From Carex sylvatica (taxonomy: Eukaryota; Streptophyta; Magnoliopsida; Poales; Cyperaceae), in assembly GCA_964058845.1 (NCBI GenBank), contig CAXKVR010000094.1, positions 1 through 64,000 of the forward strand: a stretch of DNA of 64,000 bases. The letters run 5' to 3'. A model generated the notes under the pieces. That model made no database searches and had not been told where the DNA came from. It saw nothing but the letters and a program-made list of their open reading frames with translations. A program made the translations under genes and the position numbers. Of the stretch, positions 10,417-59,099 are shown piece after piece. Positions within the stretch are counted from its first letter, which is position 1; the number at the start of each line of letters is the position of its first letter.

Positions 10417-16515
<6,099 letters not shown>

Positions 16516-31405: not shown

Positions 31406-31849
31406 TAGGGGTGGTGAAAAGGCTTGTAGCTCGTGGCTCGATCGTGACTCGCACCTGACTCGCTTGTTATTGGACCGAGCTGTTAACGAGCCAGCTTGTC
31501 ACTAGCTCGGTCCATAATTAACGAGTTCAATCTAGGACCTAGCTTGCCCGCCACCTTGAGAGCTAGCTCGGTTAGGCATCAATTTGTGAATTTGTGTGCA
31601 TTTTATACTGTCTAGCTCGACCCAGCTCGGTTCAGCTCGGCCTAAAAAGTTTATAAAATTCATTTGCTTCTTAAAACAATATCCAATCAGTCCTAGCTCG
31701 TCAGCTCGCGAGCTAGCTCGAGCTGGCTTGTCATGAGTTCAAGCCACTCGGCTATAGCTCGGTCCAGCTCACTCGGCTATAGCTCGGTCCAGAATTAACA
31801 AGCTGAGCTAAGGTCTAGCTTAGACTGAGCCAGCTCGTTGCCACCCCTA
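31406..31849. mobile_element. hAT-type MITE rich in AGCTCG motifs, 444 bp
   Basis: The ends taggggtgg and ccacccct(a) are inverted. The flanks attatcaa (31398-31405) and attattaa (31850-31857) match at 7 of 8 bases. The interior is filled with agctcgg/gctcg oligomers, the same type that forms the ends of the gene-carrying element at 55729-58247. Confidence 0.85.
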
Positions 31850-53945: not shown

Positions 53946-56216
53946 TGAACCACAACAGATATTCATTCCAGGCTTTGTATGCAGCCCCTCGCGGTTCTAA
54001 CCTTTTCCCTTCAAAATTTTTGTTGTTTCTTTCCTTCCAAAGAATCCAACATGCAGAGAAGAAGAAAACCCCCCAACATCTTCCTTGTTACCCAGCCTTT
54101 ACATGCCCGCCACGATTTAGTAACCGTTGCCTGAACAGAGTTTCCTACATGCACAATAGTATATCCCAGCAAGCTACTATACCACCTCCAAAAGTTTTTC
54201 ATATACTCGCAATGAAAAAGAATATGTGATATGGTTTCGAGATGAAACGATTGGCACATTACACAATCTGGAATACATTGCAGACCTCTTCTGAGCATTA
54301 CATCATGTGTTAAAAGTTTTCCTTTTAAACACAAAAAATGAAAATTCTCACAGTTGGTGGAATTTGAAGTCTCCAAGTAAAGTCAAACCTCCATCTCATT
54401 TTACCTCTAGCCACTACTGTATCATGATAAGATTTGGCAGAGTACTCACCGGTTGAAGTCCATCGCCAAATTAAATTCTCTTCTGAAGCCGTACCCAGTA
54501 TATCCTATTGTATACCTTCCTGTACTGCCCGATGTAAAGACCAATTCCTTGTACCAGGCAGGATATCCATCTGTGCCCGCATAGTAGGATATAACCAAAC
54601 ATCAAACCAGTACGAAATTGCAGCCCCTGAGTCAATGTTCCAATTGGTGCTCCAATCGAAAAAATGTTTCAATTTGAGCAAGTCTTTCCAAAAGAATGAT
54701 CCATGTAGCATCCAAACTCGGTGACTTTGTTGTGTACTAGTGACCGAGAGAATAACTGTCCCCATTTGGGTCCATAATGATTACAGATGTTGATATAGTT
54801 TCCACCACCAACGCATCAACAGTGACCAATTTCTGATTTGGGGCTCTGCTCCTCCCATGCCACCATTACTTTTAGGAAGACAAACAACAGACCAATTGAT
54901 TAATGAAATACCGTTTTTATTCTCATCTTTCCCCAAAGAAACTTTCTTCGTATCATATACAACCTCTTAGTTACCCATTTAGGCAACAAAAAGGACGACA
55001 TGAAGTATATCGGAATAGAACTGAGTACCGAATTCATGAGTAACAGCCTGCCTCCTCTTGATATGAGGCGACTCTTCCACCCTTCTAATTTATGCTCTAC
55101 CTTTTAAATGAGAGGCATAAATAACTCCTTGTTAGGTCTGTTTGAAGTTAAAGGTAACCCTAAGTACGTTATTGGGAAGTTAGTTTCTGAGCACCCAAGA
55201 ATTGCTGATATAATCGGCACTTGAGTTGAATCTACATTGATTGGAATCCATAAGCTTTTACCATAATTAATTTCCAATCCAGAAACTGTTGTGAAGAGGC
55301 GTAAAATGATTTTAAGGGAAACAATAGTAGTAGTGTCGGTTTTGGATATGAGAACAGTATCATCAGCATATTGATGTACTATCACCGAACTCTTTAGTTT
55401 CCTTGTTAACCGGCTATTAAGAGTACTATTGAGAACTTCGATCATCTTTTGAAATACATCCACCGCTATATCAAACAGCATGGGAGATAAAGGATCTCCC
55501 TGCCGCAGCCCCTTTTTGTGCTTGAAAAAATCAGATTGATCACCATTTGACAGTACTCTAGAAGATGCCGTAATCAGCAACTCTTCAATCCATTTAATTC
55601 ATTTAGCGGGGAATCCACGTGCTACCATCACTCTTTTTAGGAAGGACCAATTAACCGAATCGAAGGCTTTTGCAAAGTCGATCTTTATAAAAGCCGCTGG
55701 TTTACCCTTCTTTGATATGTGGTGTAATTAAGGCTGCTAATGATTAAGGCTCGACTCAAACTCGGCTCGGCTTGTCAATTGTAGCTCAATGATTCGGCTC
55801 TTAACTCGGCTCGATTTTGAAAGAAAAAACTCGACTCAGCTCGGCTCATACAGTGAAGTTAACAATCCCAGTATTAGAAATTAATACACCCCATGTGCAC
55901 CTAAATAGGGACCGTTTAAAATCTGGCCCGTAAATCCATCAACTCAAAAGTATTGTACAAAATAAAGAGCGAATGATTTAATTCATTTGTGAACTGCCTT
56001 TTCATGTCTAACAGCTCAGAATTTGTAGAACCACTGTTTGGTTCAGTCTTTAAGAAAATGAGAAAGAAGGTTACACACTTCCATAAAATGAGAATGAAAA
56101 CTTTTATATACTTGTAGGCACATCAAATGTTTCCATTTACATGCTGACAGTGGCAACCTCACAGTTTTAAGAGTAAACATGAGATAACATAAACAATGGA
56201 GATAAAAAGAACGTAC

Positions 56217-56626
56217 ATCATCAGACTCTTCTTTCTCTTCAACCTTATCTTCTTTCTTGGCCTCAGCAGCTACTGGAGCAGCACCACCACCTGCAGTAGG
56301 TGCAGCAACAGCAACTGCAACACCTCCACCTGATGGCACTGAAGCGAACTTCTCCCTACCAGCAGCAACAACCTCAGCTAGGTCTTTGCCTTTAAGCTCA
56401 GACAAGGAATTCCATCCTCTTCTTGTCAGACTCAGCTCTAACTATAATAATTTTAAAACAAAAATAATGTTAATTGCAAAGTTTTAACCTTTTGAGTTTA
56501 TACTGTAATAATAAGAAATTAAGTAAAGGTTTATAACCTGATTCGAGGATGCCCTCGATATCCTCACAAGAGGGGGAGGTGTTACCACCGAGAGGTAGCA
56601 GGAAGTAAGCAGCAATAACCTTCATC
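56217..56626 (-). pseudogene. RPP2: Captured 60S acidic ribosomal protein P2 fragment
   Basis: The first exon (56626-56538) starts ATG and reads MKVIAAYFLLPLGGNTSPS, then CEDIEGILES, with a phase-1 donor. The second (56441-56217) continues V.AESDKKRMEF, then KGKDLAEVVAAGREKFASVP, the Ala/Gly-rich hinge, and KKEDKVEEKEESDD, ending at a GT donor. This is the stalk protein P2 architecture (normally about 113 aa, ending in an acidic tail plus DDMGFSLFD-like end). Two bases are missing near 56406, shifting the frame between EF and LSELKG. The final exon with the conserved C-terminus was not found inside the element. It is therefore a dead, 3'-truncated copy. Introns are present, so it is a genomic-DNA capture. 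Confidence 0.9.
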
Positions 56627-57196
56627 CTATGAAATTTAAATATACATTATCAGTAACAATCTCAACAGACAGAATTACATGCCAGAAAAGCACCATACGT
56701 AACGATTATACCAAGCAAACAAATAAACATATGATCATTTCACATAATTGTTGTGAGACAAACATATGATTATTTTTAACACATACTAATTTTCATAAAC
56801 ACTCTAGGTTCAGTTTCAAGTAACATTCCATGATTAGTGAGTACTGACAGAAATAAATTGCTAATTCTGGAGTTGATAACAAATTATTTATAACTAAAAT
56901 ACAGCATATAAAATCTATTTATTACAAGTACATATGCATCTCGAAACAACAACATAGCATTTCGAAATTTATTTCACATTTCAAAGCAGTCTAAGCAATT
57001 AAATCAAGCTGTAATCGGCACATAAGCTCTGATCACGCGTGACCTCGTGTTGTGCTGTGATCATACCAGTTAGCGTGTTGCGTCGTACCAATTTTCTGAA
57101 TAAACATGGTATAGCCTACTGGGTATTTTTTTTCATGAGATAACATAAACTTGAATTCTTAATTTAGCATGAGAGCATTTTCAGTTAAAATAATAC

Positions 57197-57860
57197 CTTC
57201 AGCACGCTAGAGAGCATTTTCAGGTTTCGCAAAAGTCGCCATGATTGAACAAAGGATTCAAAAGGTGTCCGCTTCCCTCAAGCAGGAGCTAGATAGCCTG
57301 AAACACATCAAAGAAAATGCACCAACAAAATGTTTCAGTACCAAATTCAAAATTTATATGTACCACCACAGATTTTCTTTGGGATCAACAAGATGCTTCT
57401 TATATGCACAATGAAGATTATATACCACATACACTTCAAAGAAGTAAAACTTGGAACTTTCTGGGTATAATTGCACAGATTTAAAATTCTCAAAAAATAG
57501 CAAACAAATGAACCATGAATTTCAGATGATACGCAGACCTTTATAGGAGAAAACAATATGAAGTCTAAAACATGAAAGAATGATCTTTCAAACTAGGTAA
57601 TGCATGCATGACAGATAATTGAAAAGAAACCAAATTTTCAATAAAACCAATGATGGATGGATCCAAAAACAACTTACTTAGTTTGGTAGGTATCTGCTAG
57701 GGTTCTTCAACAAAAGTCGAACAAAAAGGAATCAAATCAAAGCACGATCTGAAGTAACACTCGTTCGTCGCGACGCTGCTCTAGCCTCAGATTAAAGGAT
57801 GCGATTTTGCGAGAGATAAGAAAAAGGCGGCAACGAATTAGAGAGAGAGAGTTAGGGTTT
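57197..57860 (-). pseudogene. TIF3A1: Captured eIF3a first coding exon and leader
   Basis: The ATG at 57242-57240 (minus) opens MATFAKPENAL, the invariant start of plant eIF3a (translation initiation factor 3 subunit A). The next codon is TAG where the family has Lys (ALKRAEE). The exon stops at GAAG|GTATT (57197), a donor-like site. Upstream, a CAG acceptor at 57298-57300 and a donor CTAA|GTAAGT at 57678-57676 frame a leader intron. The exon above 57678 (up to about 57860) looks like a 5'UTR, with 'gaagaaccctagcag' and CT-rich sequence. Only about 16 codons of a gene of roughly 1,000 codons were taken. The stop makes it non-functional as eIF3a. Confidence 0.82.
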
Positions 57861-57873
57861 CTCTCCAGAGACG

Positions 57874-57907
<34 letters not shown>

Positions 57908-58015
57908 GGAGAGAGCTAGAGAGTGCTCACTAAACTGAGCGAGAGGTGAATTAGAGAGAGAGTTCGGGTTTCTCTCCAGAGACGGAAGAGAGAGAGAGAG
58001 ACGGAGAGAGCGCTC
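57835..58015 (-). promoter_or_regulatory. Duplicated telo-box/GA-rich leader segment
   Basis: A block of about 50 bp occurs twice (57835-57885 and 57948-57995): gaattagagagagag, then agggtttctctccagag (cgggtttctctccagag in the second copy), each followed by (GA)n. On the minus strand copy 1 contains AAACCCTAA, a telo-box found in promoters and leaders of plant translation genes, beside CT-rich leader sequence. Copy 2 has a one-base change in the motif. It probably came with one of the captured genes. Promoter activity is inferred only. Confidence 0.55.
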
Positions 58016-59099
58016 TCGATGGGCCGAACCTAGCCTATTTGATTAATAGTTTAAAAGTATGAGTCGGCTCGCGAGCTCACGAGTCGAATCAATAATTTAC
58101 ATGAGCCGAGTTGAGCTGAGTTTTCTTTTTTTAAAACGAGCCGAGTCAAGTTTGACTTTTTTTTCAGTTTTGAGTTCGATTCATTATAAAATATTGAGCC
58201 GCTCAACTCATTGATTCGTGAGCCGGCTCGACTCATTAGTAGCCCTAGGTGTAATATTTCTCGGGTGGCATTGAAGTTTTCTGTGATTTGACGCCCATGA
58301 ATATAAAGGCAGTTTGGCATGGAGCAATCAAAGATGGTAGTAGCCCCCGAGCCGGTTAGCTAGAATTTTAGAGATGCATTAATCACGCTAATAGGTCTAT
58401 AATCCCCAACCTCCTCAGAAACATTCTTCTTTGGAATCATAACAATATTAGCATGGTTAATTGGAGATAAGTCTACTGTATGATCATAAAACCCCTTGAT
58501 TAATGAGATAACTTGATCTTTTACAACTGACCAGTGCACTTGAAGAAATTCATTGGGCAACCCATCGGGGCCGATGCTTTATTTCTTGCAAGTTTCTTAC
58601 TCGATTTCTATTTCTGTAATTGAATCCTGCAAAGTATCAACATTTGGATTAGTCGGATATAGAACCTCAGGATTGAAATCAATCACATTATTTTCTGTAC
58701 CAAGAATAGATTCCATATGCCCTTTAAAAGCATCTCGGATTTGAACATCTTGAGTGAGGACCTGATTTTGGTGTAACAGAGATGCAACCTTATTCCTTCG
58801 GTATCTTGTCGATGCAACCGCATGAAAATAACGCGTGTTTTTATCACCCACCTTTAACCACTTACATCGCGATCGATGATGCCATCTAGATTCAATTATG
58901 CATGAAATCTTGTATGCCAATTATTAGTGGAATCTTAAAATGCCTGGTCAACATCTGTGTTTATAAGTTGCCCTTCTTTGATTTTCAAGTTTGTTTTTAC
59001 TTAACAAGATCCTAATTTTAAGAACACACACTCCAAATTATTTCCAGTTAGATTCGGTTGAACTTTCTCCATCTATGCCTTTATAATTGTGTATAGTTT

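Follow-up and report, generated by a model that had tools for sequence, protein, structure and literature searches.

A hAT-type element of Carex sylvatica holding pieces of the ribosomal protein P2 and eIF3a genes

The window analyzed here is a 64,000-nucleotide stretch of the Carex sylvatica genome (NCBI GenBank assembly GCA_964058845.1, contig CAXKVR010000094.1, positions 1 to 64,000 of the forward strand). At 55729-58247 it contains a non-autonomous hAT-type element of 2,519 bp (plus strand), delimited by its termini, by comparison with its family and by empty-site alignments, which interrupts a long interspersed nuclear element (LINE) and holds pieces of two translation genes, those for ribosomal protein P2 (RPP2) and eIF3a. 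Searches for relatives and sources were performed against a partial assembly of 64 Mb that includes some duplicate contigs.

Element boundaries and insertion site

The left terminus of the element reads TAAGGCTGCTAATGA and the right terminus, as its reverse complement, TAGGGCTACTAATGA. The short terminal inverted repeats of hAT elements are typically of the TAGGG(N)TG type, and both termini of the loaded element follow this pattern; a 50-nt inverted repeat further inward is 82% complementary. An 8-bp target site duplication, GGTGTAAT, was read from the sequence at 55721-55728 on the left and, in an identical copy, at 58248-58255 on the right. The host LINE lies on the minus strand, with a Pfam reverse transcriptase match (PF00078) at 55104-55720 left of the element, and resumes from 58256, and the insertion point is the reverse transcriptase region of this LINE. 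When the two flanks were joined with one 8-bp copy, the joined sequence aligned to four other LINE copies (C168, C28, C199 and C184; 66-69% identity), each alignment running ungapped through the junction, while LINE copies on C56 and C45 gave no alignment spanning the joined flanks. An initial annotation of this DNA had described a single insertion with inverted ends and a perfect 8-bp duplication, and the termini and the empty site in four LINE copies bear this out: 55729-58247 is one insertion that landed once in the LINE. The perfect duplication shows only that the element ends landed once.

Gene pieces between the ends

The P2 piece comprises a first coding exon (56538-56626, minus strand; ATG at 56625-56623), with the acceptor TTTCATAG before it and a GTTATA donor after it, and a second coding exon (56217-56441, minus strand), with a frame-shift early in the exon and a GTACGT donor after it. 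Splice sites throughout the cargo were read from genomic DNA as GT/AG signals combined with the coding frame. Joined by hand, the two exons matched the P-protein family of Pfam (PF00428, E 7.4e-15), and the P2 identity is also backed by solved P2 chains in PDB. Carex rostrata P2 was the top entry among 2,154 protein matches to the P2 cargo and differs from the joined exons at 11 of 105 residues, one of which sits at the frame-shift and may stem from the hand joining. The last P2 exon (MGFSLFD in relatives) was not seen in the element.

The eIF3a piece contains the end of the leader and the first coding exon (57197-57297, minus strand), flanked by a CAG acceptor before and a GTATTA donor after. 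From an ATG at 57242-57240 the exon reads MATFAKPENAL, followed by a TAG stop (57209-57207) and then RAE; of the 120 eIF3a records compared, many of them fragmentary or non-plant, 6 contain the peptide MATFAKPENAL. Positions 57678-57860 (minus strand) are a probable first leader exon of eIF3a, with a GTAAGT donor after 57678 and an upper limit that we infer; the motif AAACCCTAA at 57860-57852, within this probable leader, is presumably a telo-box.

Both gene pieces lie on the minus strand with introns retained. Read along that strand, the cargo runs from a GA-rich stretch through the probable eIF3a leader, an intron, exon 57297-57197, 12 intron bases and a short junction into P2, which itself consists of acceptor, exon 56626-56538, intron, exon 56441-56217 and donor. 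The exon, Pfam and protein matches agree with the initial annotation, which had proposed an RPP2 fragment and the first coding exon of eIF3a with its leader, on one strand and with introns kept. They also support its reading of a DNA-level capture from two unrelated translation genes. Both pieces are broken as proteins, P2 by the frame-shift in exon 2 and eIF3a by the stop in its first coding exon, so that any function would, hypothetically, be as RNA or promoter. Annotation pipelines could nevertheless mistake this cargo for an RPP2 or eIF3a gene.

The shared strand, together with an eIF3a piece that stops 12 nt into its intron before the repeats described below, would fit a single capture from a locus where P2 had earlier been duplicated into eIF3a, perhaps into one of its introns, or into the adjoining DNA. 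Since P2 keeps its introns, that prior duplication would have to have taken place at the DNA level. The partial assembly yielded no locus of this kind, which is a weak point against this account because eIF3a was not found there at all. We consider a single capture improbable.

The cargo is single-copy in the partial assembly. Two matches were considered as P2 donors and rejected: the one on C88 is another acidic P-protein (50% over 48 residues, with no DNA match to the cargo), and a P-protein-family match on C53 yielded no alignment with the cargo. A native transporter gene of the window, assembled from three joined open reading frames (ORFs), was nearest to Carex rostrata (89%), with Rhynchospora tenuis and R. 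breviuscula next (79%). Host and cargo thus point to one plant family, Cyperaceae.

Short direct repeats and other interior features

Two copies of a 17-bp direct repeat were found on the plus strand, at 56178-56194 beyond the P2 exon 2 donor and at 57134-57150 at the eIF3a/P2 junction, the latter a possible templated filler. Part of eIF3a exon 1 recurs over 14 bp at 57171-57184 (plus strand), 39 bp from the exon copy at 57210-57223, and this 14-bp copy may likewise be templated filler. The 17-bp repeat was the longest exact direct repeat in 55851-57830, against a maximum of 14 bp in 500 dinucleotide-preserving shuffles, and a 14-mer repeated within 60 bp was seen in none of 500 dinucleotide shuffles.

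A segment of 70-80 bp (55878-55957, plus strand) matched two places on C114 at 81-83% identity, one of them near an NB-ARC gene; this segment either represents a third capture or is a small repeat. The GA-rich stretch (57842-58010, plus strand) is built on a 58-nt repeat (57842-57899 and 57953-58010, 93% identical). Because it has an exact GA-rich 20-mer in common with the GA-rich interior of the family copy on C105, it could originate either from the eIF3a promoter or from the element scaffold.

A family with common ends and changing interiors

The 5' end of the element (55729-55850, plus strand, beginning TAAGGCTGCTAATGATTAAGGCTCGACTC) and its 3' end (58058-58247, plus strand) each occur at no fewer than 39 other places in the assembly, some on duplicate contigs. 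The 5' query gave at least 44 matching stretches, of which 40, the window's own among them, were near full length (best 40 of 74 candidates), and the 3' query gave at least 40 matches, again including the window's (best 40 of 79 candidates). Among the matches listed, the closest relatives of the 5' end were the copies on C105 and C51, at 90% identity. This assembly search with the terminal ends, which the initial annotation had suggested, recovered 20 distinct complete copies from 30 paired loci, with the copy on C103 and C694 counted once; the 20 are only those loci whose surroundings were retrieved, and many further end matches were left unpaired. The sequence TAGGGCTGCTAATGA is a recurrent terminus form, found at one or both ends of many other family copies.

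Allowing the boundary to shift by at most 1 base, all 8 duplicated bases agreed in 12 of the 20 copies and 7 of 8 in a further 3. The control with displaced boundaries gave 8/8 in 0 of 924 and 7/8 in 6 of 924 comparisons. The possibility that the element itself is an artefact, through chance resemblance or an assembly join, found no support beyond the incomplete state of the assembly and its duplicate contigs, such as C103 and C694 with their common copy. Its duplication and ends obey the family rule and its gene identities are far above chance, and we regard an artefact as extremely improbable.

Interiors were compared between copies on the plus strand with an E-value threshold of 1e-5. The middles of 6 of the 20 copies (the window, C399, C232, C859, C103 and C105) matched no other copy, the middles of C121 and C788 matched only each other, and the remaining copies (12/20) share AT-rich patches. 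The family is one of common ends and changing interiors.

Two observations concern particular loci. On C9 (173346-181659), three paired family copies lie within about 8.3 kb, two of them with only 3/8 duplicated bases. The copies at C103:54489-55913 and C694:3486-4910 are one family copy on two contigs with an identical interior, which suggests that the assembly contains duplicate haplotype contigs.

Gene DNA in other family copies

Besides the window's, four private interiors were searched for sources (C399, C232, C859 and C103). In the C399 copy (element 660-1715), about 190 bp recurs on C36 and C93, at four places in all. Two of these were examined (C36:127250 and C93:320201), and in both the matching stretch is adjoined by exons that are probably aminotransferase-like; one exon matched PF01063 (E 0.00045, under the curated cut-off), and a further two had no Pfam match. 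A second interior stretch of C399 matches 201 bp of C118 with 82% identity. Since PF13456 gave a weak reverse-transcriptase-like match close to that source (E 0.0077, below cut-off), the source may be a repeat. By these sequence matches C399 appears to be a further loaded copy, with an intron piece of an aminotransferase gene and DNA from a second locus. The interior of C103 matched itself, on two contigs, and contains a dispersed repeat present at 14 other places (72-78% identity), and those of C232 and C859 matched only themselves in the partial assembly. As only C399 gave a gene source, gene-derived filler was found in one of the four further copies searched. The proposal that the family is able to load gene DNA is supported by the shared ends, the variable interiors and the aminotransferase-gene intron piece in C399.

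A possible source of transposase

A profile search with the hAT dimerization domain (PF05699) gave at least 150 matches in the assembly, and none of these (best 150 of 198 candidates) lay on contig C94. The sole ORF of at least 120 amino acids inside the element is P2-derived. Both results accord with the earlier statement that no transposase is present in it. On C44, a dimerization domain (2039-2257; 61.7 bits, one internal stop) shares its orientation with a decayed 3' end of the family that follows about 1 kb further on (C44:3254-3437). The arrangement is suggestive, and C44 is a candidate relic of an enzyme-coding family relative.

Classification and published counterparts

We are confident, though short of certainty, that this is a Pack-type non-autonomous hAT element (Pack-hAT) carrying host gene pieces. 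As in other Pack-TYPE elements, no transposase was found inside, and host gene DNA (the P2 exons and eIF3a exon 1) lies between the ends. Pack-MULEs have Mutator-like ends and duplications of 9-11 bp. They resemble this element in capturing intron-bearing gene pieces and differ from it in those ends and duplications, the hAT-type ends and the 8-bp duplication ruling out a Pack-MULE here.

Gene-carrying hAT elements have already been published, and this element adds a clear further case to an established kind. Gisby and Catoni 2022 (PMC8903248) catalogued the Pack-hATs of rice and maize, which are likewise non-autonomous, have 8-bp duplications and contain coding DNA and less repeated DNA; they differ in species, and the window copy holds two named genes, whereas the two-gene example compared from that paper is a PIF element and not a hAT. 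Du et al. 2011 (PMC3260210) described gene fragments in 2 Ds2 and 9 Ds-l4 elements of maize and deemed them rare for hAT. These Ds elements belong to the same superfamily and have variable filler with intron-bearing gene pieces, and Ds2 retain about 200 bp of Ac per end. The examples with named donors that were compared (Ds2-22 and Ds-l4-354; PMC3260210) carry one gene each, unlike the window copy with its two, and one compound Ds element combines a retrotransposon piece with a transcribed sequence (PMC3260210).

Benjak et al. 2008 (PMC2528002) described Hatvine-6, a grapevine hAT family that has shared ends and variable, element-specific interiors matching introns, exons and non-genic DNA; its copies share transposase sequence, whereas none was found in the window copy. 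Among the animal Pack-TIRs of Tan et al. 2021 (PMC8277862), 208 of 370 are hAT; these differ in their animal hosts and in that single-copy cases were mostly loaded in place. A 2026 review (PMC13317346), in which Pack-MULEs are named, holds that an undiscovered route by which DNA elements capture unlinked genes may exist.

The initial annotation had called multi-gene capture by hAT elements little described. This overstated its rarity, as hAT capture is on record (PMC2528002, PMC3260210, PMC8277862, PMC8903248). A hAT copy with two named genes was not found in the compared parts of the published hAT-capture accounts, a set that mostly excludes subscription journals and is not proof of absence. 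The element is a well-bounded sedge hAT case that holds pieces of two named genes and belongs to a family of differing interiors.

How the element may have been loaded

In the mechanism that we propose, a hAT transposase acting in trans would recognize the conserved ends, about 120-200 bp each, between which lies host DNA derived from the genes for eIF3a and P2. The middle would have been loaded when a family copy broke internally and was repaired by copying from other loci, with the repair polymerase switching template between them. The 14-bp and 17-bp copies at the junction fit this route, because repair synthesis that jumps from one template to another should leave copies of this sort behind; for animal Pack-TIRs, gap filling with template switching and microhomology has been proposed (PMC8277862). 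Since neither donor was found in the partial assembly, we infer the breakpoints, the capture date and the mechanism; loading by break repair with template switching is in our judgment about an even call. The junction repeats make this route directly testable against the donor genes.

A variant of the same explanation is that the gene pieces entered an element that had already landed, so that the loaded form itself never moved. The single-copy state of the cargo in the partial assembly favors this variant, as does the conclusion of Tan et al. (PMC8277862) that animal Pack-TIRs present in one copy are for the most part products of gap filling, with no transposition involved. No counter-evidence was found; other loaded copies may lie outside the partial assembly. 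In-place filling is a realistic possibility that we hold somewhat below even.

Loading could also proceed by neighbor fusion, in which two family copies beside host DNA lose their inner ends and move as one larger element, repeated rounds adding genes. Such a model was published for Pack-CACTA and extended to Pack-TYPE elements including hAT (PMC8903248), and copies of this family can be close, as the three on C9 are, though two of those have only 3/8 duplicated bases. Two rounds would be required for two genes, and no inner family-end remnant was found between the gene pieces; in the window, the end queries matched outer parts of the element only (E 1e-5). We regard neighbor fusion as unlikely, while giving it some weight.

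Several points count against the favored explanation. In five of the 20 family copies no more than six of the duplicated bases agree, and three of the four other private interiors searched (C232, C859 and C103) gave no gene source. Neither the RPP2 nor the eIF3a donor locus was found in the partial assembly by DNA, P-protein-family or eIF3a protein searches; the eIF3a protein search returned no match, an empty outcome that is little proof of absence. The 17-bp repeat may have belonged to the P2 introns from the start. The link to a transposase comes from one decayed locus on C44, with an internal stop, a damaged end and no 5' end seen, and a Pfam scan of a poorly chosen piece of that locus found nothing. 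The local-fusion model of Pack-TYPE growth (PMC8903248) would load DNA as well.

A wider version of template-switch loading would make the sedge hAT family a general gene loader, in which one repair event jumped between two unlinked translation genes, left short templated copies, and fused P2 exons to the promoter and leader of eIF3a in a single orientation, allowing a chimeric transcript that might act on the donors through small RNAs. In its entirety we think this chain improbable.

Other features of the window

A miniature inverted-repeat transposable element (MITE) at 31406-31849 had been linked to the loaded element by terminal repeats in the initial annotation. That kinship did not hold: its ends (TAGGGGTGG) and body align with the loaded element over only a few bases (best local scores 18-25), and it was rejected as a family member. 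The MITE begins and ends with TAGGGGTGG and is flanked by ATTATCAA and ATTATTAA, which agree at 7 of 8 bases; because of these flanks and its ends it looks hAT-like in its own right.

A reading frame for cytochrome b6 (petB-type; PF00033, E 3.4e-75) lies at 11929-12573 and is probably plastid DNA in the nucleus; a LINE endonuclease frame (PF03372) follows it at 12570. A transporter gene of the major-facilitator type appears to be present in four tandem copies at 23720-45531, with PF07690 in a reading frame of each; we take these transporters to be spinster-like, and the last of the four copies is nearest to Carex rostrata.

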